Below are positions 752-56,106 of a stretch of DNA of 64,000 bases, piece by piece. Under the pieces are notes generated by a model, which made no database searches, was not told the origin of the DNA, and saw only the letters and a program-made list of their open reading frames with translations. The DNA comes from Nothopassalora personata (taxonomy: Eukaryota; Ascomycota; Dothideomycetes; Mycosphaerellales; Mycosphaerellaceae), in the NCBI GenBank assembly GCA_033816765.1, contig CM066294.1, positions 248,001 through 312,000 of the forward strand, in the 5' to 3' direction. How positions within the stretch are numbered: position 1 is the first letter of the stretch; every line of letters begins with the position of its first letter. The position numbers and the translations under genes are program-made.

Positions 752-763
752 ATTAATTAATCT

Positions 764-12201: not shown

Positions 12202-12572
12202 TATTAACGACTAATAGGTTGTGTTAACCTTAGATTTGGAGGGGGTCCCTTAGGTCCAACTTGCCCTAATTTCATTTAGGTTTGATTGGACATTTAGGCA
12301 AGCTAGTAGGACCTAGTATAGCTATTAAGATATATACTACGCAGTTGAGCATTGTAAGCGTAGCATTAAGGCAACAATTCAATTTATACCTCTCGAGTAG
12401 AGGGCATAGGGGTTTAGGGTCCGCCAATCCTCTTGTTTTATCTAGCTACTACGCTACTCGTTACGTGACCTAATTTCCCGGTCCCGGGACCGGTAAGTAC
12501 CCCTACTTACGTAAGTACCGCTCCATACCACCACAACTCGGATAGGCCTACATAGAGTAGTTAGTAGACATT
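12202..12572 (+). repeat. 5' LTR of A1
   Basis: Begins TATTAACGACTAATAGG and ends TAGTAGACATT. It matches 23609-23979 with transitions of the RIP type. It contains one copy of the 16-bp palindrome CCGGTCCCGGGACCGG (12478-12493) and an adjacent TACTTACGTAAGTA partial palindrome. The terminal dinucleotides are not the usual TG/CA, which may itself be due to RIP. Confidence 0.9.
12478..12493. repeat. Family-A palindrome, copy 1 (5' LTR of A1)
   Basis: Perfect 16-bp palindrome CCGGTCCCGGGACCGG inside the LTR. On the left the flank is AATTTC, on the right TAAGTA, so the longer ATTTA...TAAAT arms of copies 2 and 3 are imperfect here. Confidence 0.95.
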
Positions 12573-12923
12573 ATTTTAGTAGTTAATAAGGGGGGTCGTT
12601 AAGTGTACACCCGGTAGCGTATTAGCATCTAGTTTATAAGGTTAAAATCACGGTTTAAGCTCTAAGGTTCACGGTTAAGGTTATTACTTAAGGTTAAGGT
12701 TTAAGGTTAAGGTTCACGGTTAAGGTCGACTAAGGTCGAAAACACTTAAGGTCCAAGGTATTTAGCAACAATTACGGTTATAAGGTCCTATTAAGCAACA
12801 ACTAGTATTAGCACATTCTAAAGTAAGCACTACGTAACAATAGATACGGCTACATTACTAGAAAAACTTAGCACCTTTACCGACATAGGCAGAGGCTACG
12901 AATAGCCTATAAACGCCACGAAA
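12573..12923 (+). other. A1 leader with degenerate TTAAGG repeats
   Basis: Untranslated region between LTR and ORF1. From about 12636 to 12765 it holds at least ten tandem or near-tandem copies of (T)TAAGGTT variants, interspersed with CACGG. The same block is in A2 (about 59240-59370) and, eroded, in A3 (about 45290-45420). It resembles telomere-type repeats in composition but is internal to the element. I do not see a clear tRNA primer-binding site directly after the LTR. Confidence 0.7.
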
Positions 12924-15767
12924 ATGGAAGGGGTCTATAGGGATTCTATCCCTTATAAGGGGATAGAGGAATCGGAGGAAGGGGAAACACCTAAATCTAG
13001 TAAAGAAGGGAGAAGCGGAACTAGCGCCGCTAAATTAGGTATAGGTGTAGGAACGAACAGCATAATTGGAATAGATACTATAACTGCCCTCTTTAGACGA
13101 TTAGTAGTAGCAATAGAAAACGCTAGCCCTCGCTTTCTACCTCTAGGAGGTGCTAAGAATCCGTTCTTTAATAGCACTAATGCTACTAAGTTCTAGGAGC
13201 GGTTTAGCGACCTAGTAGACTAGTATCCGCCTCGGGCATCCATTAAGAAGGATGATTTCTAGGGCAGGTTTAAGCGCAATTATGAAACTACTATCCGGCG
13301 CGTAGTTATAAGGCTGCCTAGGTAGCTTACTAACAAGGCACGTTTTAGGAGGGCGTTCTTATTAGAGTTCTTAAGGTTTAACGCCTACTCGATATTAGGG
13401 AGTCGGGAATATCTTAAGGAGATTATTAGGGCGTAGTAAGGCAAGAGGCCTAAAGAACAAGATGTAAAGGAATTTATCCGCCTATTTGTATCCTTAAGTA
13501 ACCTAATTGAACCTAAGGATTTAGATAATAGCTCCCGGAGTCGCCTTCTCCTTTAGGGATTACTAGAGGCAGTCGCGAAAGCGGTCTATAAGGCTTGCGG
13601 GCTTTACCTAAAGTAACCTAAGAAGTTTAGGGACTTTTAGAGGATTCTCGATAAAGCTACTAGCATCGTAGATAGTAAGGAGGGATAGAAAGCTATATAT
13701 ATAGATTTCCCTCTTACTTTACCTTAGCTATACCGCTTAGTCGTGAAGCATATACCGCGCCTTAAGCCTAAGATTAACACGCTTAAGAAGGCTACCTCTA
13801 GGACTGTTATTAATAATAACCTAATCTAGAAGGTAGCTAAAATGAGCATACGTACATACTAGCGCGGTCGCGTCGCGGACGCGGGTACCTTCTACCCGAG
13901 CGAGAATTAACGCTCTATATAACCGGAGAGGCACGACCTAGACACTAAACTATAGGTTTACGTAATGTAGCGTCCCCTATCGTAGAATCGCGAATAGTCT
14001 AAAGCGATAGATGGTTGTTGCTACAACTATAGCAGTTCGAAGCACTAGGCTAGCAATTATAGGGCGATAAGGTCCTTAATATCCCGGGGCTACGTATACC
14101 TCGTCCCGAACAACTAGTAGTATCTAGGGAAAGAAGGCGATCTACGTCCTACTAAGTTTAACTTTCGGAGGGACTATAGTAAACCGAAACTACTCTATAT
14201 GCTCCCTCTACTCGAAGAACATTATAGACCGATCGAGTTTAATAACTAGTATAAGATTCCCGCACTACGTAAGTAATAGATAGGTAGGGACTATACTAGG
14301 GTAACTAAGGTCACGCCTCCTAATTATTTTAAGCCCCCTCCTAACTTTAGGCATTTAATAGAGTATAGCCCTTAGGACGCACGGTCTAGCTAAATAGAGA
14401 AGGCTACTAGGACATATTAGGTCTTATTCGGAGAAAGTGAAGCGGAGTAGGCAATCGACTTAGGCAAGCTTAACGAGGTATCTGCCTATCCTATGCAGTC
14501 TAATAAAGTGAAAGGGAAGGCACCCGTAGGTATTCTAAAGAATCCGCACCCGAGAACCCGGTCCTTAGCCTAGGATCTACGAGCCCGAGCTAAGGCTACT
14601 AAGAAAGTTCGCCTACAATTAGAATAGGAGATCCGGTAAGCTAAGATTAACTAGTAGGAGGTTAAAATAATTAACGAAGTTAATGCTTAAATAAGCGAAA
14701 CTTAATTATTAGCTAAATCCGGGGTAACCCTAGGAAGGGGAAATGATGCCTAAGTAAATAGACTAGGGAACGATACTAATAAAGGACTGCCTAAGGATAT
14801 GCCTATTAGTCCCGTAAACGCCCCCTTCGCATAAAGGAAGCGTATGTAGAATGCTAAGACTATAAGGATTAATAACTACGTCCGACAATATAGTTTAGCT
14901 AGTAATAGCCCGGTTATAAAGGAAGAGGGTATTATCTACTAGATTAATTAGATCCTCTAGACAACGTTTCCTAATGTAAACGCCTAAGATTAGTTTCGAT
15001 ATAGTCGCTAGTTCGAGGCTACCCTCTTTAGTCGCGTTACTAACACCCCCGCTCTTTAGGAGAAGCTCGCTATAGTACGACGTCTTATAGGAAAGGACCC
15101 TAAGGTTTGTACTAAACAAGTAGTTACCTATAAAGATGAACCTAAGTATAATAAGGAGGTCTTCCGCGAAGATAGTTAGGCCTAGTATGTCGGAGTGTAT
15201 TTAACTATGCTTTGCTCTAAGGGTACGGTCCCTACTACTAAGCTATATAAGGATGTTAAGAAAATCGGGCTCTCTAGTGTCCTTAATAACTTTACTATAG
15301 TCCCTAGTCCTTAGGTAGTAGCGGAGTTTAGGATAAACAAGAACTAGATTAGGTGCCTAATTAATAAGGGTTCCGAGGTGAATATTATCGGCTAGAGGAA
15401 CGCTTATAGGTTTAGGTTACTAGTAATGTCGAGTACTTAGCTTACCTTTCGAGGTGCTAGAGGGCGGGCCTAGTTTAAAGGTGTTGTAGGCAATTTAGAT
15501 GTTTAGGTATTTAGGGTTTACTACTAAGTAGACATGTTTATCTCCTCGGATCTAAACTCACTAATAATCCTAGGACGTCCGTAGGCCCGTAAGGTACGGC
15601 TTACTACCCGTAACTGCGATAATGGTTTATAGGAGGGGACTATTACTAGCCGCAAAGGTAAAAGTATTATGTTTACTGCCCTAGTTAGCTCGGACAGGTG
15701 TAAGACCCTTTAAGAACTATTAAAAGCGTCGGGAAATAGAAGGGTAGGTTAAGTTACGGCACTTAAC
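12924..15767 (+). pseudogene. gag: A1 ORF1: gag-protease polyprotein, RIP-inactivated
   Basis: One frame runs from ATG at 12924 to about 15767 with TAG/TAA at probable Trp/Gln. The first 90 codons are open (Ser/Gly/Lys-rich start, then a hydrophobic segment). A long helical gag region follows to about 13920. At about 14010-14060 there is a zinc knuckle of C-x2-C-x4-H-x4-C spacing in which the first Cys and the His remain and the second and fourth positions are Tyr. Near 15350-15400 a retropepsin-like CysLeuIle-Asn-Lys-GlySerGlu motif appears, where Asn is probably the RIPped catalytic Asp. Downstream, LeuIleIleLeuGlyArgPro fits the second conserved protease motif. ORF2 is in a different frame. 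The role is capsid formation and processing. Confidence 0.75.
15448..15461. other. Empty target site of E3 in A1
   Basis: TTCGAGGTGCTAGA, the reverse complement of the 14-bp duplication that flanks E3 in A2 (56413-56426 and 56544-56557). A1 has one copy and no insertion. This proves that E3 is an insertion and defines its ends. Confidence 0.9.
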
Positions 15768-15842
15768 CTACCGACTTGCTAAAGCCGGATTTAATAAAAT
15801 CGGTGAGGTTCTCGCACTATCTCGGAGAAACCTCGGACTTTA

Positions 15843-15868
15843 ATTTACTAGTCCCGGGACCGGTAAAT
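15843..15868. repeat. Family-A palindrome, copy 2 (ORF1/ORF2 boundary)
   Basis: 26-bp palindrome with arms ATTTA(C)...(G)TAAAT around GTCCCGGGAC. The left arm has one RIP-type pair of changes (CTAGT instead of CCGGT). It lies between the last readable part of ORF1 and the first readable part of ORF2, which are in different frames. Confidence 0.95.
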
Positions 15869-18800
15869 AGCTATAGTAAGGAAAACGGGTACGACTACGA
15901 CACGACGCATCTATAGGAACTCGGTAAGGCTCTAACACCTAGTAACCATTTAGCTTACTTATTAGGATTGCTTAGGACTACTAGAGTAAAGGAACGAGTT
16001 ATAGAAATTGGGATAGGCGCGTTTAAAGGAGATTCTATTACTAACGTTTATTTAGTTTAAGGGGATTAGTCCTCCGAGATCCTAAGGCAATCTACATTAA
16101 ATGCTTAGGTACGAAAGCAATAATTAGGCTAACATATAGCTAACATTAGGATGCCGTAGGTCTTTACGATATATAAGCGTAAGGCGGATAAGAAGAAGCT
16201 AGTAGACGCGAGCGTTTACGAGCGCCTAGAATCACGAGTTAAGGGAGATATAGAATAGAAGCGTAGGGCGCTATACCTAGAGTCTAAGATGCCTAAAGGA
16301 TAAGGTCCATTTAACGGGAAGTACTTAACTGAGAAATTCTTAAGTATTAAGCGAGGTAGCCGGATTACTCTAGAACGACTTACCTTAATTAAGGTTAGTA
16401 TTAAGCTATTGCTAATAGAAAGGGCTTTATTCGATAAGATGCTCTACAACCGGGAGGTAGTCCTCGCTTAGGATTTTAGTTACATAAGGCAAATTAGGTA
16501 CGACGTTATACTACCTTAGAAGATTAACACGGTCCCTTATAGGCTATAGTAGGCACGCCCTATCCGGTTGCACCTAAGTCTTAGGGCAATTGTTAAGCGT
16601 ATAATTAGAGCCCGGATTAAGAACAACATCCTAGAATACTTATAAGGGGTATATTCTAATAGCTGGTTCCTAGTCGTAAAGAAGGTTAATGCCTCTAGAA
16701 GAGATGTGCCATATTAGTTAATTAACTTAGCTATGCTCCTAAATAAGGTTACTATGCGCGATGCTAATATTCTACCGGACACGGATAGCTTCTTAGAGGA
16801 TTTTACCGGGTGCCGAGTCGCTTCACTTATAGACCTGTTTTTAGGTTATAATTAGATTACTTTAGATAAGTCCTACCGGGACTTAATAGCCTTCATAACC
16901 CCTCTTAGCCTAGTACGCAACACGACTCTACCTTAAGGAGCTACTAATTTAGTTGCTTAGTTCGTGCGTACGGTAATGAAGATTCTACTTAATTATATCT
17001 CGCATCGAGCGAAGCCGTTTCTCGATAACATCGGTATTAAGGGACTAACTAAGGACTATAGGAATGCCGAAGTAGAGCCTAGGTTAAGGAAATAGGTCGT
17101 TAAGTATATCGTTTCCCTAGATCTAGTTCTTGCTAACCTAGAAAGAGCTAGTACGGTAGTTACTAGAGGTAAATCCTAATAGTTATACGAAAAGCTTAAG
17201 ATTGTTAGGTACATTACTAGCCCGGATAGTCGCTATCCTAACCTAAAGGTTATAGCTAAGATCCTAGATTAGCCTACGCCTACCTATATTAAGGAGGTCC
17301 GCACTTATGTAGGGCTATGTATGTACTTCCGGATATAGATTCCCTAGTTCGTTGTTATCGCTCGACTAATGTATAAACTGCTAAAGAAGGACGCCGAGTT
17401 CACCTAGACAGAAAATGAGCAGTTCTTAAAAGAAGAGGTTACTAGATACCTTATGTAGGCTCTAGCCTTAGTTACCCTCTACTACTTACCTAGTGCTAGG
17501 TCTATCTTTATCTTAGTTAATGCTAGCGGCACTAGATAGGGATGTATCGTTTCTTAAGAATTAATAGACAGTACCCGACGGCGTTACCCGGTACGGTATA
17601 AGAGTAGGATCTAGAACGCGTTAGAATCTAGATATAATACTAGTAAGGGGGAATGCCTTAGGGTCCTTAAGGGGCTTAAGAAGATCTAGAGATATATTAC
17701 TAGCGTTAATTTTGTCCTTAAGGTTAATACTAAGACACTTATATAGTAGCTTAACCGGCCGGCTTCGGACCTGCCGAACTCGGCAATAGCCCGGTAGGTC
17801 GTATAGATTAGGTTATTTACGTTCGAGGTGAAGCACGTTACGGGGACTAGATACACTAGCCTAGATACCCTATCTCGTAGACCCTCTACACCTTAGGAAC
17901 CTAGGGAAGCTAACGAAGATAAAGTTGACTAGATGATTAATAATAAGCTATTCGGGTACCCGGAGCCGGTCGACACCTATCTAGTTGAAATCTAGAAAAC
18001 ACGACATCTCGGGAACTAATATTCTAAGGGCTCTTAGTAGCTTGCTTAGGTTATAGAAACTAGGACCCGGCCTAATAGTATTACCCGTGCTAAGTACCGG
18101 CGGCTAGTAAAGAAGAGCGTCAACTTCTTTATCCGAGACTAATTGCTATTCTTCTAGAAGCGCCGAGGAGTACCGCTATAACTTATAATTAACGATAATA
18201 AGGCTTAGAAGGAAATCGTTATAGAATGCTATAAAAGACACGGTCATCGCAGCGCTAAGGTCGTATATAACCTTATTTCCGATCGGTATTACTAGGACGG
18301 GTGCTTCGCTAATGTCTCTACGTAGGTTCGAAGTTATGCTCCTTATAGGTTTCGCGAAGGTAACTAGCGCGCTAGTAAGCTTCACTTATCGAGCCCTTAG
18401 GTTATTAGTGAGAAATAGTACTCGGACCCCGTCTAGGTGCATAAAAATAGATACCTCCTAGTTACGCGCGAAGCACTTAGCAACTGGATCGAGGCTAGAG
18501 TAGTAAGGGCACCTCCTAGCTCTAAGACGGTTGCTAAGTTTCTATACGAAGATGTCTTCTATAGACACGGCTACTATACTAAAATTGTGCTTAATAACGC
18601 TACGGTTTATGCGGCTAAGGTTAAGCGGTTACTCGTAGGACTTAGTGTTCGAAGGATCCGAATATTACCGTACTATCCGTAGTCTAATGCTCCGGTCGAG
18701 GTTAGGCACCGTCCGATTCTTATAGCGTTAGTAAAGCTTATAAGAAACACATACCGCGGATAGGAGTAATAGGTACCCGCTATATTATAGGCTAATAGGA

Positions 18801-19598
18801 CCACGACCTGTTGTACTACTAGAATGACGCTAGCTTAGGTCCTATATAGCTATCATACGATTCTACTAATTGAGGTTAAGTACCCGACGTAGGCGAATTA
18901 TTAATAGGGATCGGTTAAGACGACTAAGGACCTACTTATAATACGTGCGCGTTAACTCTAGGCTCGAGACCTTAGTTTAGAAGAGCTATATGCTCGAAGG
19001 AAGCGACTAAGAGAACTTAGTAAGGACTACTTTAATTCTTACCGGAATGTTAACTTTATTAGTTTCTAGAAGGGCGACCTTGTTATAAGGTTCGATAAGC
19101 TATATAAGGATGACTTCTTACGTAAGATCGGTTACCGATAGTAAGGTCTATATCGGGTGTCTAGTGTCTCTAGGGAATTTAGTACCTATATTCTTAAGGA
19201 ACTTAATAGCACGCTAATAAAGGGTATTTAGGCACGATAAAACCTTAAGCTAGTTCTAGAGCTTCGCCCGGATAATATAGGAGTACTAAGCTTAGATAAT
19301 AGGATCGATCTCGTAATAGGCGAGGGAGAAGTCGCTAGTAGCGTCGCTAATAGTAAAGACAGTAGTAATTCGAACGAGATCGAGCCTATCGCCGACGAAG
19401 AGGTGCTACCTATAGGAGTTAACGAAAGGGGATCGGATCCTAAACCGGAATCTAAGAAGCTATAGGTTAGGCCTTATAACCTTTCTATAGCCGAAATTTC
19501 ACAGTTTAGTAGGATCGAGCCTAAGAACTAATTAGTTAGTAATAGCGTACGGAGTTTACTTCCCTTAGGTATGTGTTACGTATACTCTTTAGTTTATT
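15866..19598 (+). pseudogene. pol: A1 ORF2: pol (RT, RNase H, integrase), RIP-inactivated
   Basis: Readable in one frame from the palindrome to TAA at 19596-19598. RT around 16580-17060: IleAsnLeuAlaMetLeuLeuAsnLys, SerLeuIleAspLeuPhe, and PheLeuAspAsn at 17018-17029 in place of the catalytic Tyr-x-Asp-Asp (GAT to AAT is RIP-type). RNase H around 17500-17800. Integrase: zinc-binding end near 18230, core from 18437 (LeuValThrArgGluAlaLeu..., an 81-codon clean stretch), ValLeuAsnAsn near 18588 for the second catalytic Asp, and ProValGlu near 18690 for the Glu. A GPY/F-like segment follows (IleArgPheAspLysLeuTyrLys near 19090) and an acidic tail; no chromodomain. Trp codons are TAG throughout. 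Confidence 0.85.
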
Positions 19599-20099
19599 AA
19601 GCCAATTCGGTTATCTAGACTTTACTTTATAGGATGTTCCTACCTTAGTTAGACCTTAGTTAGTAGAGTTACATTTACCGGTCCCGGGACCGGTAAATCG
19701 GATTACGTAATAGTGTAGCATACCTCTATCGAATGCTTACCTAGGTAGTTACTAGTACTGGTTTTCGGTTACATGTAGGGTTATCGGACCTTTAGTGTAA
19801 CCTTAATAGCACTACTCTTACTACTTATAAGACCGGCCTCGGTACTACTACCTTATAACGGTTATAGGGATATACGCTAAGAGGCATACTTAAGCGTAGC
19901 TCTCTACCTACTACTTCCTCTCTTTTTCTTTAAACACTAATACTATCTAACTACTACTATATACATTAGACGGTTCTTTAGCCTCTCTCTTTACGACCTT
20001 AACCTTCTTTAAAGCCCCCTACCCTAACATTAAGCTTTTAAAGCTTACTAATACTCTAGAGTAGTACTACGAGATAGCTAACTCTTACGATCCTACTAC
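19599..20099 (+). other. A1 ORF2-ORF3 spacer
   Basis: Spacer that contains palindrome copy 3 (19673-19698) and a pyrimidine-rich stretch (about 19915-20010, CTCTCTTTTTCTTT). Pyrimidine tracts just upstream of a start are common in fungal promoters and acceptor regions. I see no protein motif; the N-terminal limit of ORF3 may lie in the last part of it. Confidence 0.5.
19673..19698. repeat. Family-A palindrome, copy 3 (ORF2/ORF3 boundary)
   Basis: Perfect 26-bp palindrome: arms ATTTA and TAAAT around the core CCGGTCCCGGGACCGG. It lies about 75 bases after the last stop of ORF2. This is the least damaged copy and probably shows the original form. Confidence 0.97.
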
Positions 20100-23023
20100 T
20101 AGCGAATCCTAGTTATTATATCTTTAGCTAGTCCTTCGTTACACCCGGCTAGTTCGAGCATAGCGCTTACTAGTACTGTTACTAGGCTTACCCGCCTACC
20201 TTAGACCTTGTTCGAGTCCCTTTGTCTACCGGATAACGTTAAGCATGTCCTTACTAACACGAACACGCCGAAGTCCGCCGCTAATGTTATGTTCCGGGAG
20301 CTTAGTCCTTAGAAGCGGGTTAAGGTATTAAAGGACTTCTATAAGGGCTTCGAGAAGGTGTTCGAAGACTACTCCGTCTAGGTTAACCTATTTTTCGAGG
20401 AAGTTAAGAACGGTATAGGTAAGAGCTATAAGGATAAATTCCTTAGTAATAAGAAGCTCGATGTCTTATTTCCTATCGTCGGTAAGATTCGTAAGACCGG
20501 TTTAGAGATTCGTAATCGTAAGAAGACTCTTCGAGCTACGCTTACCCGCTACTAGCTATAGTAGATAGACAATAAGATTCTTAATCGACGTATTATCTCC
20601 GAGCTTTATAGTACTAATAGCGGGCGCCGCTAGTTTACGGCCTTTATTAACAAGTACCTAGACTACAGTAGGACTGTTAGTAGAATTTGGAGGGCATTAA
20701 TCTAGCGTATAAGGATCGGCCGTAAGGGCATAGATCGTAAGCAAATTCTAGAGCCTAGTAATCTTACCCGGTACGATAGGGAGGCTAAAGCACGTAGTAT
20801 TAATCCGTAGTCGGCTAAGAGTAGGGAGATTATTAGAAGACACCGCCTAGCCGTCTATAAGGATAGCCTTCTATACTTTATAGAGGGTACTATTACTAAG
20901 AAGTCCGCGTCCCTAGAGGATAGTATAGATTAACCTAGACTATCTAGCTAGTAATAGCCTTAGCTACTACCGGGTAGTAAAGGTAAAGGACATATAAAGA
21001 GTACTACGCTAACTCTACTACTAGCCTCTACTTAGCCTATAGTCCTATTAAGAGGCGGTCGTAAGTCGAGTCGACTTAAGTAGCTCCGTATAGGCGAGAG
21101 TATAGGTAAGGGTATAACTACGCCTACTCGATCCTCGCCTAACCGAACGCTAGACGGCGCACCTATACGCGAGGGCAGTCCGCTAGGTATATCGGTTAGC
21201 ACTCTATAATCTACTCCGGCCCTAACTAAGAATAGCAATCCGATACTTACTATATTACCTTCGGCTATAATTAGGTATGTATTAGTCTTTAAGAATTAGA
21301 TCCTATAAGAAGACGAGGCCCTCCGGATTAAGCGCGCTAACTGCACCTATAATAAGCGGTACTGTAGCGTTAAGTTTAGAAACTCAATTAACGTAGATAG
21401 CATTAACTAGCTACCTAAGTACCGGATAGCGGGCCTTAAGATGCTCGAACATGCTGTCTCGCGGGTTCTTAAGAGGGATAGTAAGGTTAGCGCTATAATG
21501 TGCGATTAGCATATTCGAGATTTCTACTATAAGGCCCTCTACTTCGTTACGAATCCCGGTATTACCGCTATACCCTATGTAAGCGTACGCTTAAGGTCTA
21601 AGACTAGCTCTTTAAAGGCAAGAGTTTTTTAGCTATTAAGGTGAAGAATGGGTCGTGGTTTCGCCCTAATAAGCGTAGTTAGAAGACTGTTAACCCGCTT
21701 AGCTACCTCCGCGTTCGAGGCAAAATCGGCACTACGAGTAGTATCGTTACGTATACTAACTATAACTAGATCCTTAACAAATTCGGCATTAATAAAGCTA
21801 ACTAAGCCGATCTTAATAGTACCGGTACCTACATTAATAGTAACATACTATACTAGTATAATAACGCTAACCTAGCGCCGCGGGTTAAAACGGTTAGAGA
21901 AATAATAAGTCGAGAATTCGACGTATACCGATAGTACCTACGAGAATTGAATAAGGTTAGTAACGGCGGCGTCTACTAGAATATATAGTATTCTCTAAGC
22001 TAATAGATTATGCGATAAGACCCCGGGCTATTGCTCTTATAAGTGGCGCTACACCCTTAATACTATACTCGGTTTATCTCCTTACCTAGGCCTACGATTT
22101 TTAGCTTTAATAGAGCTTATTAGGGGGGTAGCGCGAACGCTATAGTACAGTATACTAGGGTCGACTTTAACCTCGAAGTTAAAAACTACTAGACTAGTAA
22201 CCGGCTTAATATGCTATACTCTCTTAACTTAGAGGGCACTAGTAGGCCGGAGTTTTTACACGGTTTTTATAAGTAAGGGAATGCTATAGACTTCATCTAG
22301 TAGTACCGGATTAACGACTGTATAGAAGACGGCCGATTTAAGCGTTTCTTCTCGGTTAGGGTTTAGAATTACCTAAGTAAGAACAGCATTAGCTAGTTTA
22401 GAGAGGACCTAAGCGCTAGGCAAATGCGGGTAACTACTATAGGCGTTCTAATAAGGTAGGCCGTACATAAGAAGACGCTACGTTAGATTAACCCTTACTT
22501 TATCGAGATCCGCGACGATAACTATCTTAAACTCTAGAGAAGCTAGAGCATGCACTAGGTAATAGACCTCTATCGTAACTTTAAGACGCTAAGTAAGAGC
22601 GCTGTAGGGTTTAAGTATCGACGCCTAGTACCTAGCTATCCTTTCCCTACGGCCGTACACCTTAGTAGCATTAGCCCTCTATCCGATGCCCTAGCGGGTT
22701 TAAAGTCTTAGAACGATAACAAAGTCATCCTTAATGCTAGAAGGTGGCTTAATGCTACGGTCCGCCTAGACTCGGAGCTCTTCTATAAGAAGATGCATAA
22801 TTAGCGCGTCCGAGCTATAAAATTAATAGATAAGTAGCTTAGCTTAGTCACTACTCTCGAGTAGATGTGCTTTATAAGCGAAGGGCGTAATAAGAGCTTC
22901 TTCCGCAACTACTATAGGAACTTTACTAGCTAGCTACTTAGGGACGCGTCTAGTAAGACTAGTGTTAGCTACGATAACGAGTAGGTCTAGATAAAGGAGT
23001 TGTGTAAGAATAAGTGGAACTGA
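20100..23023 (+). pseudogene. A1 ORF3: large unrecognised protein 3' of pol
   Basis: A long recoverable frame in the env-like position. The first part is followed in one frame from about 20100 to 21600, Lys/Arg-rich and helical (LysAspPheTyrLysGlyPheGlu near 20332; IleArgIleGlyArgLysGly near 20710). The second part, in another frame, runs from about 21605 to a genuine TGA at 23021-23023, with Trp/Gln as TAG/TAA (AspProGlyLeuLeuLeuLeu near 22020; final LysAsnLysTrpAsn). The frame change near 21600 is shared with A2. I recognise no catalytic motif, signal peptide, transmembrane segment or zinc finger. Total about 950-1000 codons. The same stops and shift in A2 show that it was already dead when the two copies became identical. 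Function unknown; not a typical env. Confidence 0.6.
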
Positions 23024-23608
23024 GTAGTTAGTGCGGGTTTATAGGCTCCTAGTTTCTAGTTAATTTCCGGCTATAGCTGTAGCCTATAGGTTCTAATTCT
23101 AGTTATAATTCTAGTTAATGCTTCGGGTACGGGTGCTTCTAGTCCTTAGATCTTACTTGTTTCTTATAGTTACTTATCTTCCCTTAACTTACTTTCTAGC
23201 TACGCGATAGACTCGTCTTTAGATTTATTAGGTTACTAGTACTAACACTTACTTATCTTATAAATGGCGTTCACATTATTCGACTATCTAGCTCGTTCGA
23301 TTGATACTAACATAGCTACCTAATCCCTCGCTAGTTTCGTAGCATACGTTAACGTAGTGCGACGGGCGCGAGTTGCGGATTATTAACGTTACTATTACGG
23401 TCTCTATTAAAGGGATCCTTTCGACCTTTATAAACTGTCGTTAGTAGGCCCTAGGATTGCCTAACATCTTATATATTAAGCTAAATGGTAGGGTGAGCTA
23501 CTATGCTACTATAAGACTACCTTAGCTTATAGCGACTAACTAAGCTACCTGTAGTGCCCGGGCTCACTACTTTAGAACCTAAGGACAGGTTCGTAATGGG
23601 GGAGGATA
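23024..23608 (+). promoter_or_regulatory. A1 3' untranslated region with polypurine tract
   Basis: No coding frame. The purine run ATGGGGGAGGATA at 23596-23608 directly precedes the LTR and is the expected plus-strand primer. About 23492-23550 is a 59-bp block missing from A2 (see findings). Palindromic GTGCCCGGGCTCAC lies near 23554. Confidence 0.75.
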
Positions 23609-23979
23609 TATTAACGACTAATAGGTTGTGTTAACCTTAGATTTAGAGGGGGTCCCTTAGGTCTAACTTGCCCTAATTTCATTTAGGTTTAATTAGACAT
23701 TTAGGTAAGCTAGTAGGACCTAGTATAGCTGTTAAGATATATACTACGCAGTTAAGCATTATAAGCGTAGCATTAAGGTAACAATTCAATTCATACCTCT
23801 CGAGTAGAGGGCATAGGGGTTTAGGGTCCGCTAATCCTCTTGTTTTATCTAGCTACTACGCTGCTCGTTACGTGACCTGATTTCCCGGTCCCGGGACCGG
23901 CAAATACCCCTACTTACGTAAGCACCGCTCTATACCACTACAACTCGGATAGGCCTACATAGGGTAGTTAGTAGACATT
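23609..23979 (+). repeat. 3' LTR of A1
   Basis: Direct repeat of 12202-12572. Differences are transitions such as TCTAACTTG for TCCAACTTG and GCTGCTCG for GCTACTCG, consistent with RIP acting after insertion. It is followed by the ACTAT target duplication. Confidence 0.9.
23885..23900. repeat. Family-A palindrome, copy 4 (3' LTR of A1)
   Basis: Perfect core CCGGTCCCGGGACCGG within the LTR, flanked by GATTTC and CAAATA. Confidence 0.95.
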
Positions 23980-36910: not shown

Positions 36911-38320
36911 AATAGATTCCTCCTTAAATAAACTTATTCTAGATTCTATAACCTAGATCTTTTCTCTAGTATCCCTAAGTAACCCTAATAACTAAGCTAA
37001 ATAGTAACTAAGGACTAGGGCCTTATTAGGTTCCTATAGACGCGTTGTACCGTAGTTACTCCCGTCTTCCCTACTATAGCTATTTACTAATCCTAGGACC
37101 GATAAAATAAAGTCCGATATTTCTCCGAGAGAGTACGAGGACCTTACTAATTTAGTTAAATTTAGCTTAAGAAAGTTATAGGTAGCCTAAGCGCTATAAA
37201 TTAACCTATTATTCTATTTCCTAACGCCTTTAGTAGCTCTTAAAGGGTCTTATATCTATCTAACCTAACTAATATAGTAAATATAATGCTCTTGCCCTTA
37301 CGGCTAGAAATAGTTACTTTCTATAAGCCGTTACTATAGTTACGAGTAGTAAGTTACACCTTCCGAGCCTATAGATAACCTAGGATCGTTCGTAAGTTTA
37401 GGTCCGAAGATATAAATATATTAATCTAATAGTAGACGCTAAATACCTAGATCTCTAGACTATCTGTAATACTCTTAAATTCCGCTCTTCCTCTAGTACC
37501 TTAAAAGGTAAGTTAGGCGCTAAATTCTACTAGTAATCTAAAATTGAAAGTGTTCTTCTAGCTAATAATATTCACTTTAGACCCCTTATTAATTAGGTAT
37601 CTAATCCAATTTCTATTTATTCTAAACTCCGCGACTACCTAAGGGCTAGGGACTATAGTAACGATATTAAGAATACTAGAGAGGCCGATCTTTTTAATAT
37701 CCTCGTATAGCTTAGTAGTAGGAACGGTACCTTTAGAACATAGTATTATTAAGTATACTATAATATACTTAGACTAGTAATTATCGTAGAAGACTTCCTT
37801 ATTATATTTAGGTTTATCCTTATAAGTAACTACTTACCTAGAGCGTACCTTAGGTTCCTTACCTATAAGGTAACGTATAGTAGTAAGCTTTTTCTAAAGA
37901 GCTAGGGTATTAGTAAGACGACTAAAGAGAGTCGCCTTAAACTAGTAACTATATTAAAACTAGTCTTAGGCATTAATATTTAGGAAAGTAGTCTAGAGGA
38001 TTTAATAAATCTAGTAGATAATGCCCTCTTCCTTTATAATAGGACCGTTACTAGTTAAGCTATATTACTAAACGTAGTTATCGATTCTTATAATTTTAGC
38101 ATTTTCTATACGCTTTCTCTATATAAAGGGGGCGTTTATAGGGCTAACAGGTAAATTCTTAGGTAGTACCTTACTAGTATCGTTTCCTAGTTCCTTTATC
38201 TAAGCGTTATTTCTACTTCCTAGGGTCTCTCTAGATGTAGCTAATCATTAAGTTTCGCTTACTTAAGCGTTAACCTTATTAGTTATTACGACCTCTTACT
38301 AGTTAATCTTAGCCTAGCGG
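36911..38320 (-). pseudogene. A3: pol start, protease and gag C-terminus
   Basis: Collinear with A2 55833-57370 but heavily RIPped. The ORF1/ORF2 palindrome is still visible at 37082-37107 as ATTTACTAATCCTAGGACCG, with CCGG turned into CTAA. The left part of A3 is at 764-1814. It ends at the junction with D2, where about 265 bp of family-A sequence are missing. Confidence 0.8.
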
Positions 38321-47179: not shown

Positions 47180-47955
47180 CCTTCTTTTTATATCCTATAC
47201 CTCCTTCGGTCCGTTATATATTATTAGGTTACTATATTTCCTCTCGAAGTTATCCGCGGCTACTATGTCCGCGAGGTACCCTAATAGTTCCTATATAGGC
47301 TCGTAGTATCCGGTCTATTTTACTAGGACTTCGCGTACTCGGTCTCTACCTCTAGCCTTAGTTCTAGCGTAAAGGATCTCTTCTACCTACTACTCTTCGT
47401 AAGAATTAATTATAATAGGATCCGGCTGTTAATTATCGATCTCCTATCTAGGTAAGGGGTCTTAGCTCGTAGGTCGTAGTAGGTTAGGCTAAAAGACCGG
47501 GTAGATCCCGTCGGGGATCCTAGATAAGCGTATAGATAACGGCGAGATTACTTTAGCTACTATATACTTAGCGTATTTATAGTCGATACTATTCTTCGGT
47601 TATGTAGTAATATAGTTACGTAGATCTAGCTAAACTTTATCGCCTATACGATAGATTAGTACGGGCTTCCTATCCCGGTTAGCGTAGTTCTCTTATCTTT
47701 AGGCGGCTTCCGCTATACTCGCCTAATATAGGTCCGTAATCTTTTATATCCTTTTAACGAATAGCGTTACCTATTACGCGGCGTCTAGCTAAGACGTCTC
47801 TAGATCCGGTTATAACTAAACGGGTAATAGCGCCTCGTATCCGTATACCGCGAAGAAGGGGCTTATTCCTAGCCTAGCGTAATACCGCGCGTTTAGAGTA
47901 AGTTATACCGTAGGGAGCTAGCGTTTCTAGTCGGACTACTTATAGTTAATATAGT
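47180..47955 (-). pseudogene. pol: F pol C-terminus: integrase end and chromodomain-like module
   Basis: Minus strand. From 47955 leftwards: AlaArgTyrTyrAlaArgLeuGlyIleSerProPhePhe, the typical end of a Ty3/gypsy integrase core (N-A-x-x-x-x-x-G-x-S-P-F). AsnTyrAlaAsnArgAspArgLysPro and IleGlyAspLysVal follow, the GPY/F region (near 47640). Near 47290-47340 GluValLeuValLys-TAG-ThrGlyTyrTyrGluPro fits a chromodomain with Trp lost to RIP. The upstream part is cut off at 47955 by A2. Relative to D the spacing of the domains is similar. Confidence 0.7.
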
Positions 47956-48324
47956 AATGTCTACTAACTACCCTATATAGGCCTGTCCGAGTTGTAGTAG
48001 TATAGAGCGGCGCTTATATAAGTAGGGGTATTTGCCGGTCCCGGGACCGTGAAATCAGGTCACGTGACGAGTAGCGCAGTAGCTAGATAAACAAGAGAAT
48101 TAACGGGCTTAAACCCCTATGCCCTCTACTCGAGAGGTATAAATTGAATTGTTTCCTTAATGCTACGCTTACAATGCTTAACTACGTAGTATGTATCTTA
48201 ATGGCTATACTAGGTCCTACTAGCTTACCTAAATGTCCAATTAAACTAAAATGAAATTAGGACAAGTTAGACCTAAGGGACCCCCTCTAAACCTAAGGTT
48301 AACACAACCCATTAGTCGTTAATA
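47956..48324 (-). repeat. 3' LTR of A2
   Basis: 369 bp, inverse of 23609-23979, with palindrome copy at 48035-48050 (last base changed to T, CCGT). The purine tract in sense, GGGGAGGATA, lies at 48325-48334 on the inner side. Confidence 0.9.
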
Positions 48325-48850
48325 TATCCTCCCCTATTACGAACCTATCCTTAGGTTCTAAAGTAGTAAGCCCGGGCACTACCTATTATTTAGCTTAATA
48401 TATAAGATGTTAGGCAATCCTAGGGCCTACTAACGACAGTTTATAAAGGTCGAAAGGATCCCTTTAATAGAGACCGTAATAGTAACGTTAATAATCCGCA
48501 ACTCGCGCCCGTCGCACTACGTTAACGTATGCTACGAAACTAGCGAGGGATTAGGTAGCTATGTTAGTATCAATCGAACGAGCTAGATAGTCGAATAATG
48601 TGAACGCCATTTATAAGATAAGTAAGTGTTAGTACTAGTAACCTAATAAATCTAAAGACGAGTCTATCGCGTAGCTAGAAAGTAAGTTAAGGGAAGATAA
48701 GTAACTATAAGAAACAAGTAAGATCTAAGGACTAGAAGCACCCGTACCCGAAGCATTAACTAGAATTATAACTAGAATTAGAACCTATAGGCTACAGCTA
48801 TAGCCGGAAATTAACTAGAAACTAGGAGCCTATAAACCCGCACTAACTAC
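48325..48850 (-). other. A2 3' untranslated region
   Basis: Matches A1 23024-23608 but lacks 59 bases (A1 23492-23550). Contains the polypurine tract next to the LTR. Confidence 0.75.
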
Positions 48851-51774
48851 TCAGTTCCACTTATTCTTACACAACTCCTTTATCTAGACCTACTCGTTAT
48901 CGTAGCTAACACTAGTCTTACTAGACGCGTCCCTAAGTAGCTAGCTAGTAAAGTTCCTATAGTAGTTGCGGAAGAAGCTCTTATTACGCCCTTCGCTTAT
49001 AAAGCACATCTACTCGAGAGTAGTGACTAAGCTAAGCTACTTATCTATTAATTTTATAGCTCGGACGCGCTAATTATGCATCTTCTTATAGAAGAGCTCC
49101 GAGTCTAGGCGGACCGTAGCATTAAGCCACCTTCTAGCATTAAGGATGACTTTGTTATCGTTCTAAGACTTTAAACCCGCTAGGGCATCGGATAGAGGGC
49201 TAATGCTACTAAGGTGTACGGCCGTAGGGAAAGGATAGCTAGGTACTAGGCGTCGATACTTAAACCCTACAGCGCTCTTACTTAGCGTCTTAAAGTTACG
49301 ATAGAGGTCTATTACCTAGTGCATGCTCTAGCTTCTCTAGAGTTTAAGATAGTTATCGTCGCGGATCTCGATAAAGTAAGGGTTAATCTAACGTAGCGTC
49401 TTCTTATGTACGGCCTACCTTATTAGAACGCCTATAGTAGTTACCCGCATTTGCCTAGCGCTTAGGTCCTCTCTAAACTAGCTAATGCTGTTCTTACTTA
49501 GGTAATTCTAAACCCTAACCGAGAAGAAACGCTTAAATCGGCCGTCTTCTATACAGTCGTTAATCCGGTACTACTAGATGAAGTCTATAGCATTCCCTTA
49601 CTTATAAAAACCGTGTAAAAACTCCGGCCTACTAGTGCCCTCTAAGTTAAGAGAGTATAGCATATTAAGCCGGTTACTAGTCTAGTAGTTTTTAACTTCG
49701 AGGTTAAAGTCGACCCTAGTATACTGTACTATAGCGTTCGCGCTACCCCCCTAATAAGCTCTATTAAAGCTAAAAATCGTAGGCCTAGGTAAGGAGATAA
49801 ACCGAGTATAGTATTAAGGGTGTAGCGCCACTTATAAGAGCAATAGCCCGGGGTCTTATCGCATAATCTATTAGCTTAGAGAATACTATATATTCTAGTA
49901 GACGCCGCCGTTACTAACCTTATTCAATTCTCGTAGGTACTATCGGTATACGTCGAATTCTCGACTTATTATTTCTCTAACCGTTTTAACCCGCGGCGCT
50001 AGGTTAGCGTTATTATACTAGTATAGTATGTTACTATTAATGTAGGTACCGGTACTATTAAGATCGGCTTAGTTAGCTTTATTAATGCCGAATTTGTTAA
50101 GGATCTAGTTATAGTTAGTATACGTAACGATACTACTCGTAGTGCCGATTTTGCCTCGAACGCGGAGGTAGCTAAGCGGGTTAACAGTCTTCTAACTACG
50201 CTTATTAGGGCGAAACCACGACCCATTCTTCACCTTAATAGCTAAAAAACTCTTGCCTTTAAAGAGCTAGTCTTAGACCTTAAGCGTACGCTTACATAGG
50301 GTATAGCGGTAATACCGGGATTCGTAACGAAGTAGAGGGCCTTATAGTAGAAATCTCGAATATGCTAATCGCACATTATAGCGCTAACCTTACTATCCCT
50401 CTTAAGAACCCGCGAGACAGCATGTTCGAGCATCTTAAGGCCCGCTATCCGGTACTTAGGTAGCTAGTTAATGCTATCTACGTTAATTGAGTTTCTAAAC
50501 TTAACGCTACAGTACCGCTTATTATAGGTGCAGTTAGCGCGCTTAATCCGGAGGGCCTCGTCTTCTTATAGGATCTAATTCTTAAAGACTAATACATACC
50601 TAATTATAGCCGAAGGTAATATAGTAAGTATCGGATTGCTATTCTTAGTTAGGGCCGGAGTAGATTATAGAGTGCTAACCGATATACCTAGCGGACTGCC
50701 CTCGCGTATAGGTGCGCCGTCTAGCGTTCGGTTAGGCGAGGATCGAGTAGGCGTAGTTATACCCTTACCTATACTCTCGCCTATACGGAGCTACTTAAGT
50801 CGACTCGACTTACGACCGCCTCTTAATAGGACTATAGGCTAAGTAGAGGCTAGTAGTAGAGTTAGCGTAGTACTCTTTATATGTCCTTTACCTTTACTAC
50901 CCGGTAGTAGCTAAGGCTATTACTAGCTAGATAGTCTAGGTTAATCTATACTATCCTCTAGGGACGCGGACTTCTTAGTAATAGTACCCTCTATAAAGTA
51001 TAGAAGGCTATCCTTATAGACGGCTAGGCGGTGTCTTCTAATAATCTCCCTACTCTTAGCCGACTACGGATTAATACTACGTGCTTTAGCCTCCCTATCG
51101 TACCGGGTAAGATTACTAGGCTCTAGAATTTGCTTACGATCTATGCCCTTACGGCCGATCCTTATACGCTAGATTAATGCCCTCCAAATTCTACTAACAG
51201 TCCTACTGTAGTCTAGGTACTTGTTAATAAAGGCCGTAAACTAGCGGCGCCCGCTATTAGTACTATAAAGCTCGGAGATAATACGTCGATTAAGAATCTT
51301 ATTGTCTATCTACTATAGCTAGTAGCGGGTAAGCGTAGCTCGAAGAGTCTTCTTACGATTACGAATCTCTAAACCGGTCTTACGAATCTTACCGACGATA
51401 GGAAATAAGACATCGAGCTTCTTATTACTAAGGAATTTATCCTTATAGCTCTTACCTATACCGTTCTTAACTTCCTCGAAAAATAGGTTAACCTAGACGG
51501 AGTAGTCTTCGAACACCTTCTCGAAGCCCTTATAGAAGTCCTTTAATACCTTAACCCGCTTCTAAGGACTAAGCTCCCGGAACATAACATTAGCGGCGGA
51601 CTTCGGCGTGTTCGTGTTAGTAAGGACATGCTTAACGTTATCCGGTAGACAAAGGGACTCGAACAAGGTCTAAGGTAGGCGGGTAAGCCTAGTAACAGTA
51701 CTAGTAAGCGCTATGCTCGAACTAGCCGGGTGTAACGAAGGACTAGCTAAAGATATAATAACTAGGATTCGCTA
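48851..51774 (-). pseudogene. A2 ORF3 (unrecognised)
   Basis: Same frame, same stops and same frame change as A1 ORF3; the genuine TGA is at 48851-48853. No net indel relative to A1. The open pieces 49999-50226 and 50636-50842 have sequence identical to their A1 counterparts. Description of the protein is under the A1 copy. Confidence 0.6.
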
Positions 51775-52175
51775 GTAGTAGGATCGTAAGAGTTAGCTAT
51801 CTCGTAGTACTACTCTAGAGTATTAGTAAGCTTTAAAAGCTTAATGTTAGGGTAGGGGGCTTTAAAGAAGGTTAAGGTCGTAAAGAGAGAGGCTAAAGAA
51901 CCGTCTAATGTATATAGTAGTAGTTAGATAGTATTAGTGTTTAAAGAAAAAGAGAGGAAGTAGTAGGTAGAGAGCTACGCTTAAGTATGCCTCTTAGCGT
52001 ATATCCCTATAACCGTTATAAGGTAGTAGTACCGAGGCCGGTCTTATAAGTAGTAAGAGTAGTGCTATTAAGGTTACACTAAAGGTCCGATAACCCTACA
52101 TGTAACCGAAAACCAGTACTAGTAACTACCTAGGTAAGCATTCGATAGAGGTATGCTACACTATTACGTAATCCG

Positions 52176-52201
52176 ATTTACCGGTCCCGGGACCGGTAAA
52201 T
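52176..52201. repeat. Family-A palindrome in A2 (ORF2/ORF3)
   Basis: Perfect 26-bp palindrome with the core CCGGTCCCGGGACCGG at 52181-52196; counterpart of 19673-19698. Confidence 0.97.
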
Positions 52202-52275
52202 GTAACTCTACTAACTAAGGTCTAACTAAGGTAGGAACATCCTATAAAGTAAAGTCTAGATAACCGAATTGGCTT

Positions 52276-55200
52276 AATAAACTAAAGAGTATACGTAACA
52301 CATACCTAAGGGAAGTAAACTCCGTACGCTATTACTAACTAATTAGTTCTTAGGCTCGATCCTACTAAACTGTGAAATTTCGGCTATAGAAAGGTTATAA
52401 GGCCTAACCTATAGCTTCTTAGATTCCGGTTTAGGATCCGATCCCCTTTCGTTAACTCCTATAGGTAGCACCTCTTCGTCGGCGATAGGCTCGATCTCGT
52501 TCGAATTACTACTGTCTTTACTATTAGCGACGCTACTAGCGACTTCTCCCTCGCCTATTACGAGATCGATCCTATTATCTAAGCTTAGTACTCCTATATT
52601 ATCCGGGCGAAGCTCTAGAACTAGCTTAAGGTTTTATCGTGCCTAAATACCCTTTATTAGCGTGCTATTAAGTTCCTTAAGAATATAGGTACTAAATTCC
52701 CTAGAGACACTAGACACCCGATATAGACCTTACTATCGGTAACCGATCTTACGTAAGAAGTCATCCTTATATAGCTTATCGAACCTTATAACAAGGTCGC
52801 CCTTCTAGAAACTAATAAAGTTAACATTCCGGTAAGAATTAAAGTAGTCCTTACTAAGTTCTCTTAGTCGCTTCCTTCGAGCATATAGCTCTTCTAAACT
52901 AAGGTCTCGAGCCTAGAGTTAACGCGCACGTATTATAAGTAGGTCCTTAGTCGTCTTAACCGATCCCTATTAATAATTCGCCTACGTCGGGTACTTAACC
53001 TCAATTAGTAGAATCGTATGATAGCTATATAGGACCTAAGCTAGCGTCATTCTAGTAGTACAACAGGTCGTGGTCCTATTAGCCTATAATATAGCGGGTA
53101 CCTATTACTCCTATCCGCGGTATGTGTTTCTTATAAGCTTTACTAACGCTATAAGAATCGGACGGTGCCTAACCTCGACCGGAGCATTAGACTACGGATA
53201 GTACGGTAATATTCGGATCCTTCGAACACTAAGTCCTACGAGTAACCGCTTAACCTTAGCCGCATAAACCGTAGCGTTATTAAGCACAATTTTAGTATAG
53301 TAGCCGTGTCTATAGAAGACATCTTCGTATAGAAACTTAGCAACCGTCTTAGAGCTAGGAGGTGCCCTTACTACTCTAGCCTCGATCCAGTTGCTAAGTG
53401 CTTCGCGCGTAACTAGGAGGTATCTATTTTTATGCACCTAGACGGGGTCCGAGTACTATTTCTCACTAATAACCTAAGGGCTCGATAAGTGAAGCTTACT
53501 AGCGCGCTAGTTACCTTCGCGAAACCTATAAGGAGCATAACTTCGAACCTACGTAGAGACATTAGCGAAGCACCCGTCCTAGTAATACCGATCGGAAATA
53601 AGGTTATATACGACCTTAGCGCTGCGATGACCGTGTCTTTTATAGCATTCTATAACGATTTCCTTCTAAGCCTTATTATCGTTAATTATAAGTTATAGCG
53701 GTACTCCTCGGCGCTTCTAGAAGAATAGCAATTAGTCTCGGATAAAGAAGTTGACGCTCTTCTTTACTAGCCGCCGGTACTTAGCACGGGTAATACTATT
53801 AGGCCGGGTCCTAGTTTCTATAACCTAAGCAAGCTACTAAGAGCCCTTAGAATATTAGTTCCCGAGATGTCGTGTTTTCTAGATTTCAACTAGATAGGTG
53901 TCGACCGGCTCCGGGTACCCGAATAGCTTATTATTAATCATCTAGTCAACTTTATCTTCGTTAGCTTCCCTAGGTTCCTAAGGTGTAGAGGGTCTACGAG
54001 ATAGGGTATCTAGGCTAGTGTATCTAGTCCCCGTAACGTGCTTCACCTCGAACGTAAATAACCTAATCTATACGACCTACCGGGCTATTGCCGAGTTCGG
54101 CAGGTCCGAAGCCGGCCGGTTAAGCTACTATATAAGTGTCTTAGTATTAACCTTAAGGACAAAATTAACGCTAGTAATATATCTCTAGATCTTCTTAAGC
54201 CCCTTAAGGACCCTAAGGCATTCCCCCTTACTAGTATTATATCTAGATTCTAACGCGTTCTAGATCCTACTCTTATACCGTACCGGGTAACGCCGTCGGG
54301 TACTGTCTATTAATTCTTAAGAAACGATACATCCCTATCTAGTGCCGCTAGCATTAACTAAGATAAAGATAGACCTAGCACTAGGTAAGTAGTAGAGGGT
54401 AACTAAGGCTAGAGCCTACATAAGGTATCTAGTAACCTCTTCTTTTAAGAACTGCTTATTTTCTGTCTAGGTAAACTCGGCGTCCTTCTTTAGCAGTTTA
54501 TACATTAGTCGAGCGATAATAACGAACTAGGGAATCTATATCCGGAAGTACATACATAGCCCTACATAAGTGCGGACCTCCTTAATATAGGTAGGCGTAG
54601 GCTAATCTAGGATCTTAGCTATAACCTTTAGGTTAGGATAGCGACTATCCGGGCTAGTAATGTACCTAACAATCTTAAGCTTTTCGTATAACTATTAGGA
54701 TTTACCTCTAGTAACTACCGTACTAGCTCTTTCTAGGTTAGCAAGAACTAGATCTAGGGAAACGATATACTTAACGACCTATTTCCTTAACCTAGGCTCT
54801 ACTTCGGCATTCCTATAGTCCTTAGTTAGTCCCTTAATACCGATGTTATCGAGAAACGGCTTCGCTCGATGCGAGATATAATTAAGTAGAATCTTCATTA
54901 CCGTACGCACGAACTAAGCAACTAAATTAGTAGCTCCTTAAGGTAGAGTCGTGTTGCGTACTAGGCTAAGAGGGGTTATGAAGGCTATTAAGTCCCGGTA
55001 GGACTTATCTAAAGTAATCTAATTATAACCTAAAAACAGGTCTATAAGTGAAGCGACTCGGCACCCGGTAAAATCCTCTAAGAAGCTATCCGTGTCCGGT
55101 AGAATATTAGCATCGCGCATAGTAACCTTATTTAGGAGCATAGCTAAGTTAATTAACTAATATGGCACATCTCTTCTAGAGGCATTAACCTTCTTTACGA

Positions 55201-56008
55201 CTAGGAACCAGCTATTAGAATATACCCCTTATAAGTATTCTAGGATGTTGTTCTTAATCCGGGCTCTAATTATACGCTTAACAATTGCCCTAAGACTTAG
55301 GTGCAACCGGATAGGGCGTGCCTACTATAGCCTATAAGGGACCGTGTTAATCTTCTAAGGTAGTATAACGTCGTACCTAATTTGCCTTATGTAACTAAAA
55401 TCCTAAGCGAGGACTACCTCCCGGTTGTAGAGCATCTTATCGAATAAAGCCCTTTCTATTAGCAATAGCTTAATACTAACCTTAATTAAGGTAAGTCGTT
55501 CTAGAGTAATCCGGCTACCTCGCTTAATACTTAAGAATTTCTCAGTTAAGTACTTCCCGTTAAATGGACCTTATCCTTTAGGCATCTTAGACTCTAGGTA
55601 TAGCGCCCTACGCTTCTATTCTATATCTCCCTTAACTCGTGATTCTAGGCGCTCGTAAACGCTCGCGTCTACTAGCTTCTTCTTATCCGCCTTACGCTTA
55701 TATATCGTAAAGACCTACGGCATCCTAATGTTAGCTATATGTTAGCCTAATTATTGCTTTCGTACCTAAGCATTTAATGTAGATTGCCTTAGGATCTCGG
55801 AGGACTAATCCCCTTAAACTAAATAAACGTTAGTAATAGAATCTCCTTTAAACGCGCCTATCCCAATTTCTATAACTCGTTCCTTTACTCTAGTAGTCCT
55901 AAGCAATCCTAATAAGTAAGCTAAATGGTTACTAGGTGTTAGAGCCTTACCGAGTTCCTATAGATGCGTCGTGTCGTAGTCGTACCCGTTTTCCTTACTA
56001 TAGCTATT
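52276..56008 (-). pseudogene. pol: A2 ORF2: pol
   Basis: Counterpart of A1 15866-19598. The integrase core stretch 53192-53437 is identical to that of A1 over 81 codons, and RT near 54845 has the same PheLeuAspAsn in place of Tyr-x-Asp-Asp. Shared stops mean that both copies descend from, or were converted to, one RIPped sequence. Confidence 0.85.
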
Positions 56009-56031
56009 TACCGGTCCCGGGACTAGTAAAT
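56006..56031. repeat. Family-A palindrome in A2 (ORF1/ORF2)
   Basis: Counterpart of 15843-15868 with the same asymmetry (CTAGT arm). In A3 the same site is eroded at 37082-37107. Confidence 0.95.
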
Positions 56032-56106
56032 TAAAGTCCGAGGTTTCTCCGAGATAGTGCGAGAACCTCACCGATTTTATTAAATCCGGCTTTAGCAAGT
56101 CGGTAG

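Follow-up and report, generated by a model that had tools for sequence, protein, structure and literature searches.

Why should one short palindrome recur in the long terminal repeats (LTRs) of a retrotransposon and again near the borders of its open reading frames (ORFs)? The question is raised by a 64,000-nucleotide stretch of the Nothopassalora personata genome (contig CM066294.1, positions 248,001 to 312,000; hereafter the window), in which a first-pass annotation had placed eight such sites in two copies, A1 and A2, of one element family, family A. We find that the palindromes are real and far beyond chance, and that they mark one Ty3/gypsy family mutated by repeat-induced point mutation (RIP). 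Our preferred explanation, to which we give about even chances, is that the palindrome is a regulator-binding module common to the LTR promoter and to an internal promoter of a third gene, ORF3, with a further copy inside the linker of Pol. The internal sites are called J2 (after ORF1) and J3 (between ORF2 and ORF3).

Palindromes and elements in the window

12202..12572, + strand: 5' LTR of A1, 371 bp (self-alignment and sequence; the flanking ACTAT at 12197-12201 is repeated at 23980-23984)
23609..23979, + strand: 3' LTR of A1 (self-alignment)
47951..59803, - strand: A2, an inverted copy of A1 (alignment)
12478..12493, + strand: LTR palindrome CCGGTCCCGGGACCGG in the 5' LTR of A1 (pattern match)
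15843..15868, + strand: J2 palindrome of A1, core at 15848, two bases decayed, in the ORF2 open frame
19673..19698, + strand: J3 palindrome of A1, core at 19678, perfect over 26 bp, in the gap between ORF2 and ORF3
23885..23900, + strand: copy of the LTR palindrome in the 3' LTR of A1, with a RIP-altered E-box at 23868-23875
48035 (3' LTR), 52181 (J3), 56011 (J2) and 59512 (5' LTR), - strand: palindromes of A2, in homologous slots
37082..37107, - strand: decayed J2 palindrome of an older relative, family B, called A3 in the first-pass annotation (alignment with A1 J2)

All eight positions claimed for A1 and A2, four in each, carry the palindrome with zero to two mismatches, compared with 0.07 such sites expected from shuffled sequence. 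The 16-mer is exact at 12478, 19678, 23885, 52181 and 59512, has one mismatch at 48035, and at 15848 and 56011 has two, CCGG having become CTAG. The decay already noted at 15848 is thus confirmed; that at 56011 and the mismatch at 48035 had gone unmentioned. No perfect palindrome in the window is longer than the 26-bp copies at 19673 and 52176, and five first-order Markov controls gave none above 18 bp. The ATTTA/TAAAT arms described for the internal copies are perfect at J3, but one arm of J2 is partly a product of RIP, as discussed below. The ninth site, at 37082, is genuine and homologous: it aligns with A1 J2 within a relative 75.7% identical to A1, and differs from it by six C-to-T or G-to-A changes and one other change in 26 bp. 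A search of the window against Rfam returned no matches.

A1 spans 12202-23979 and has the direct LTRs (94.9% identical to each other) and flanking target duplication (ACTAT) of an LTR retrotransposon. LTR comparisons mostly give 89.5-95% identity, and other RIPed copies are ~91-96% identical to A1. The interiors of A1 and A2 (15448-23492 and 48382-56426) are 99.94% identical over 8,045 bp, an excess for which gene conversion, segmental duplication after RIP and an assembly effect are all candidates. The sequence adjoining the outer LTR ends of the family (12202 and 23979 in A1; also in loci L003, L037, L038, L042, L054-L056, L060, L064, L066 and L071) is often ACTAT, ACTAC, AGTAG / CTAT, GTAG, a possible insertion-site preference.

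The window is strongly RIP-mutated, with CpA and TpG at 0.22 and 0.25 of expectation and a TA/AT ratio of 2.04. Long ORFs are absent from its copies, whose longest runs without a stop are 101 codons in A1 and at least 124 in A2, and ten stop-free pieces gave just two weak Pfam matches (E 0.21 and 0.26). Two copies elsewhere in the genome, in loci L035 and L052, are un-RIPed, with a (CA+TG)/(AC+GT) ratio of 1.26 vs. 0.32 in A1, so that gene borders could be read without sequence repair. More LTR pairs of this un-RIPed type, ~11.2 kb apart, occur among the LTR sites listed in the census below.

The 16-mer marks one family, at fixed slots

The first-pass annotation had asked whether the 16-mer is confined to family A or is a common genomic repeat. 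Across the 54.5 Mb genome, the exact 16-mer occurs 770 times, as opposed to zero for the reversed-pattern control. Flank patterns specific to each slot account for 745 of the 770 (175 LTR, 290 J2 and 280 J3), with 25 fitting none, and the A at -5 that is typical of the family is missing in at most three matches. Allowing up to three mismatches, the 26-mer occurs 1,363 times. When slots were defined by their flanks, ignoring the core, 327 LTR, 325 J2 and 314 J3 sites were found; among 100 listed rows for each slot, tallied by hand, the core is exact in 39, 88 and 87, respectively.

Spacing was analyzed on contigs 1-3 from 78 LTR, 80 J2 and 80 J3 sites, transcribed by hand from the listings, taking the next slot within 6 kb downstream. 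Such a partner was found for 27 of 78 LTR, 53 of 80 J2 and 25 of 80 J3 sites, and the distances are nearly constant: 3.32-3.53 kb from LTR to J2 (21 of 27), 3.81-3.88 kb from J2 to J3 (45 of 53) and 4.05-4.28 kb from J3 to LTR (24 of 25). Sites lacking a partner are, we infer, cut, nested or decayed copies. Together, the slot patterns and spacings make the 16-mer a family marker at fixed slots. We looked at 20 contig 1 regions taken from the list of exact 16-mers; all 32 core sites in them lie in family A, and none was seen in a host gene. By pattern counts, then, both the family restriction and the fixed positions hold, and a common repeat unrelated to ORF borders is not what was found.

Two unusual arrangements turned up in the census genome (G000). 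On contig 3, at 3976922-3999094, LTR and J3 sites recur every 5,456 bp, and no J2 is listed from an LTR to the J3 that follows; these seem to be two tandem shortened elements that lack most of ORF1-ORF2 and retain the ORF3 side. On contig 2, at 1909407-1909441, one J3 site has TTTCACGG, an arm of the LTR-variant type, as though copied from an LTR palindrome.

J3 lies in a gap between genes, J2 inside the Pol frame

The ORFs of A1 are broken by RIP, and their borders were transferred from the un-RIPed copies.

12840..15752, + strand: ORF1, Gag region with an aspartic protease candidate near its end (start codon decayed)
15662..19531, + strand: ORF2 open frame, with reverse transcriptase (RT), RNase H and integrase (the first ATG of un-RIPed copies corresponds to 16151)
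15731..15737, + strand: slippery heptamer GGGAAAT, in register for a -1 shift, in the ORF1/ORF2 overlap
20118..23023, + strand: ORF3 region (start codon decayed)

On the reverse strand of L052, ORF1 ends with a stop codon at 1527, and ORF2 has an open frame spanning 1439-5293 whose first ATG is at 1928. J2 lies at 1625, J3 at 5443, 150 nt past the end of the ORF2 frame, and the ORF3 ATG at 5898. Both un-RIPed copies have the start of the ORF1 stop codon 98 nt upstream of the J2 core; in both, the ORF2 frame opens 88 nt ahead of this stop and continues through J2, where it encodes LPVPGPVN at Pol residue 62. The earlier statement that the internal palindromes fall precisely between ORFs in different frames is thus correct for J3, which sits in a non-coding gap, but not strictly for J2, which follows the ORF1 stop and lies inside the open Pol frame. 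The GGGAAAT heptamer in the 88-nt overlap could give access to this frame by -1 frameshifting; the chance of any canonical heptamer there is ~4%, by our own rough estimate rather than a computation.

Three aspartyl-protease models of Pfam match the end of ORF1, all below cut-off (best E 0.0013). In Pol, RVT_1, RT_RNaseH and Integrase_H2C2 match above the Pfam cut-off and rve below it (18.8 of 32.6 bits), giving the RT-RNase H-integrase order of Ty3/gypsy elements. The closest Pol relative aligns to 82% of the query at 51% identity. For ORF3 no relative was found. Its frame in L052 runs for 670 codons and is followed by another open frame; with the protein supplied by the copies in L055 and L052, two pieces and the following open frame had no Pfam match up to E 0.1, the two pieces matched no chain of a solved structure up to E 1, and the 670-residue query had no protein relative at E ≤0.001 among 7988 scored candidates (found with words from its first 500 residues).

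Could J2 be an additional internal promoter, giving a separate Pol mRNA from the first ORF2 ATG? The distance from palindrome to ATG is similar at the two places, 319 nt from LTR to ORF1 and 303 nt from J2 to ORF2. We also counted transversions between A1 and family B (~75% identical) at third positions of the ORF1 frame, at other positions and at third positions of the ORF2 frame; the figures are sums of windows that individually scatter. They are 63, 29 and 22 from 13183 to ~15681, then 13, 10 and 12 to ~16185, then 11, 7 and 28 to 17065, so J2 is within a stretch lacking clear coding bias (~15682-16185), as this explanation would have it. Among 120 listed of 230 Pol relatives, the earliest alignment starts at residue 79 and all but two start at 123 or later, past the J2 peptide. 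None of these 120 contains PVPGP, VPGPV or LPVPG, and the linker of the closest relative (P0001) is not alignable with that of family A, leaving no cross-species support for J2. The open frame through J2 in two un-RIPed copies, the in-register heptamer, and the lack of an E-box or pyrimidine tract at J2 all speak against a promoter there, and we regard one as very unlikely.

LTR and J3 share an E-box/palindrome module in opposite orientations

12461..12468, + strand: LTR E-box of A1, RIP-altered TTACGTGA (TCACGTGA in an un-RIPed copy), its centre 21 bp from the palindrome centre
19703..19710, - strand: J3 E-box of A1, RIP-altered TTACGTAA (TCACGTGA in un-RIPed copies), at an equal 21-bp spacing, in the opposite orientation to that of the LTR
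19902..19931, + strand: pyrimidine-rich tract upstream of ORF3 (transferred from L052 5668-5697)

CACGTG occurs three times in the 11.66 kb of one young copy that we read, once in each LTR and once beside J3. E-box and palindrome centres are 21 bp apart at both LTR and J3, on opposite sides of the palindrome. We compared 30 flank bases between slots in one young copy, where 7.5 equal bases are expected by chance, and recorded the share of random positions reaching each score. The LTR matches inverted J3 at 19 of 30 bases (0.025% of random positions), and J3 as it stands at 11 (10.5%). J2, which has no E-box, matches the LTR at 15 (0.35%), inverted J3 at 15 (0.20%) and J3 at 14 (0.48%). The composite TCACGTGA-N10-CGGTCC-N2-GGACCG is found 398 times in the genome, its control not once; of 17 composite matches with letters shown, 15 are LTR and two J3.

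Pyrimidine tracts preceding start sites are common in filamentous fungi. Of 11,560 sense windows of 25 nt, a single one holds 23 or more pyrimidines, and it lies between J3 and the ORF3 ATG; the best pyrimidine fraction within 450 nt downstream is 0.92 for J3 and 0.68 for LTR and J2. J3 stands 455 nt upstream of the ORF3 ATG, whose context in L052 is ATCATGGC. The reversed E-box beside J3, just upstream of ORF3, suggests that ORF3 has its own switch. Internal promoters had been proposed for the palindromes without distinction; in silico, the module, the pyrimidine tract and the ORF3 ATG favor one at J3, but not at J2.

The palindromes might instead act in RNA, as self-complementary sites of the genomic transcript forming dimers or hairpins in packaging, template switching or processing, like the PAL sites of Ty1 and Ty3. 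Predicted folding gives J2 and J3 hairpins of 11 bp, with energies of -16 and -17.8 kcal/mol (z -2.9 and -3.1), and a short palindrome is required for dimerization of Ty3 5' RNA in vitro (PMC11381356) and is proposed to serve Ty1 likewise (PMC5454406). The LTR hairpins, however, are weaker (z -2.4 in the young copy, -1.0 in the exact form), the Ty1 and Ty3 sites as described in those reports lie at the RNA 5' end and are not repeated kilobases apart, and an 8-bp E-box kept at equal DNA spacing after inversion points to DNA. We consider a role in RNA improbable.

RIP accounts for most of the apparent conservation

Taking un-RIPed sequence as the reference, 78.8% of cells at CpA sites are mutated, against 3.4-6.8% at CC, CT and CG sites, figures that include loci selected on the exact 16-mer. 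The core contains neither CpA nor TpG and is hence immune to RIP (CpA to TpA), which is the chief reason for its survival. In loci picked without that bias, by similarity over 415-601 bp (11 J2 and 28 J3), the core is changed in 1 of 154 cells at J2 and 6 of 392 at J3, vs. 4.4% and 5.4% outside. This places the core at around the lowest 20% of stretches, and we rejected conservation as proof of function.

RIP can also build symmetry. The J2 arm is ATTTG in both un-RIPed copies, and RIP converts it to ATTTA, completing the 26-bp dyad. In RIP-mutated DNA generally, words without CpA or TpG will seem conserved, and a palindrome may be finished by the mutation itself. Shielding of the E-box from RIP was considered as well and not clearly seen: in 18 LTR copies, two of which are one LTR (L003 and L036), 17 of 36 CpA cells are mutated, against 552 of 944 elsewhere.

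A regulatory module or relics of assembly

In the explanation we prefer, the palindrome would be a cis-regulatory DNA site, an inverted repeat CGGTCC-N2-GGACCG of the type bound by dimeric regulators. The LTR copy would serve the promoter of the genomic RNA, which would yield Gag-protease and, through -1 frameshifting, Pol. The inverted J3 copy would be part of an internal promoter driving ORF3 separately, and J2 a related copy in the protease-RT coding linker that has neither E-box nor promoter signs, perhaps an extra binding site or a relic. Regulator binding, ORF3 transcription and frameshifting are the parts that we infer from the letters.

Several observations weigh against this explanation. 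Some 20% of stretches equal in size to the core show as few changes (unbiased loci, non-CpA sites), and the J2 palindrome of the older family B has decayed at roughly the rate of its surroundings. Among the 100 LTR sites listed of 327, 30 have a CCCAGG centre, 22 have the first C changed to A and nine others are mostly decayed, and the CCCAGG variant includes an un-RIPed copy that we read through. J2 misfits a promoter role; a directional promoter at J3, where the module is inverted, would face pol; and the end of ORF3 has pyrimidine tracts too, if weaker ones (0.80 of 30 nt). Of the two common LTR variants, one alters only the initial base and the other only the two-base spacer, leaving CGGTCC-N2-GGACCG intact in both; the suggestion that the CCG and CGG triplets are half-sites of Zn2Cys6 regulators therefore fits the sequence, such binding being a prediction.

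The decay in B and the unexceptional, if below-average, decay of the core equally suit a neutral origin, in which assembly of the element would have left duplicates of one short sequence in LTR, J2 and J3 as relics, their seeming conservation reflecting the youth of the family and RIP immunity. Against A1, four family A copies show just 30-35 transversions each in ~7 kb, and the core lacks the CpA sites at which RIP acts. Short flank similarity among LTR, J2 and J3 makes an old duplication plausible, and to this extent the earlier idea of scars of modular assembly stands. Yet the contexts look, by eye, unrelated past ~20 bp while J2 and J3 have identical 16-bp cores and the 21-bp distance to the E-box is kept; neutral copies would be expected to lose core and flanks equally. 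We judge neutral relics unlikely, though they deserve to be taken seriously.

The regulatory explanation can be carried one step further, more tentatively and with some doubt on our part. Family A could be a two-promoter LTR retrotransposon in which the LTR module, an E-box set a constant two turns from a CGGTCC inverted repeat, is inverted inside the element and controls a large third gene whose product could act on the palindromes, tuning its own element.

A second repeat in the window

A repeat of ~760 bp lies at 4586-5346 and 44107-44870, and also in L009, L037, L048 and L050, with copies 97-100% identical. Its GC content is 0.52-0.53, it is less RIPed than its surroundings, and four of six copies examined have direct end repeats of 11-14 bp; there are no evident inverted ends and no Rfam match. 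It looks like a short interspersed nuclear element (SINE) or short non-LTR element.

Comparison with known systems

Elements of the Ty3/gypsy group (Metaviridae) have the order RT-RNase H-integrase and a habit of -1 frameshifting. Family A resembles them in its Pol order and in its -1 overlap with a slippery heptamer, and differs in its large third ORF without recognized relatives and in its repeated palindrome. A literature search, at the level of titles and abstract openings, found no fungal Ty3/gypsy element with such repeats, and a search for the letters of the palindrome gave no match. Palindromes are known in the genomic RNA of yeast LTR retrotransposons, PAL6 in Ty3 and PAL1-3 in Ty1 (PMC11381356, PMC5454406). 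The Ty3 sites are 6 nt long and near the 5' end, and the passages that describe them mention neither gene-border repeats nor an E-box.

How genes downstream of pol are expressed apart from gag-pol is unsettled for LTR elements. The plant Sireviruses (Ty1/copia) offer the closest parallel, as described in PMC2829016: their repeated motifs are palindromic, mostly with a CGG-CCG core (e.g. CGGTCTGACCG and CGGTCGACCG), and stand in the LTRs and, where ENV exists, again upstream of ENV; the authors propose a role in regulation for the motifs and favor an internal promoter for ENV, which is a proposal as well. Family A, too, has a dyad-symmetric CGG-CCG motif in the LTR and a further copy, J3, upstream of an extra 3' gene. 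Unlike Sireviruses, which carry 8-32 clustered motif copies each and have integrase before RT, it has four single copies per element, and its RT precedes integrase; it is a fungal-type Ty3/gypsy element with a 16-26 bp word, an E-box partner and one copy inside the Pol frame. In its working, family A appears similar to the Sireviruses without being a member of them. It offers hundreds of copies, some of them spared by RIP, in which the proposed module is small, exact and easily mutated.

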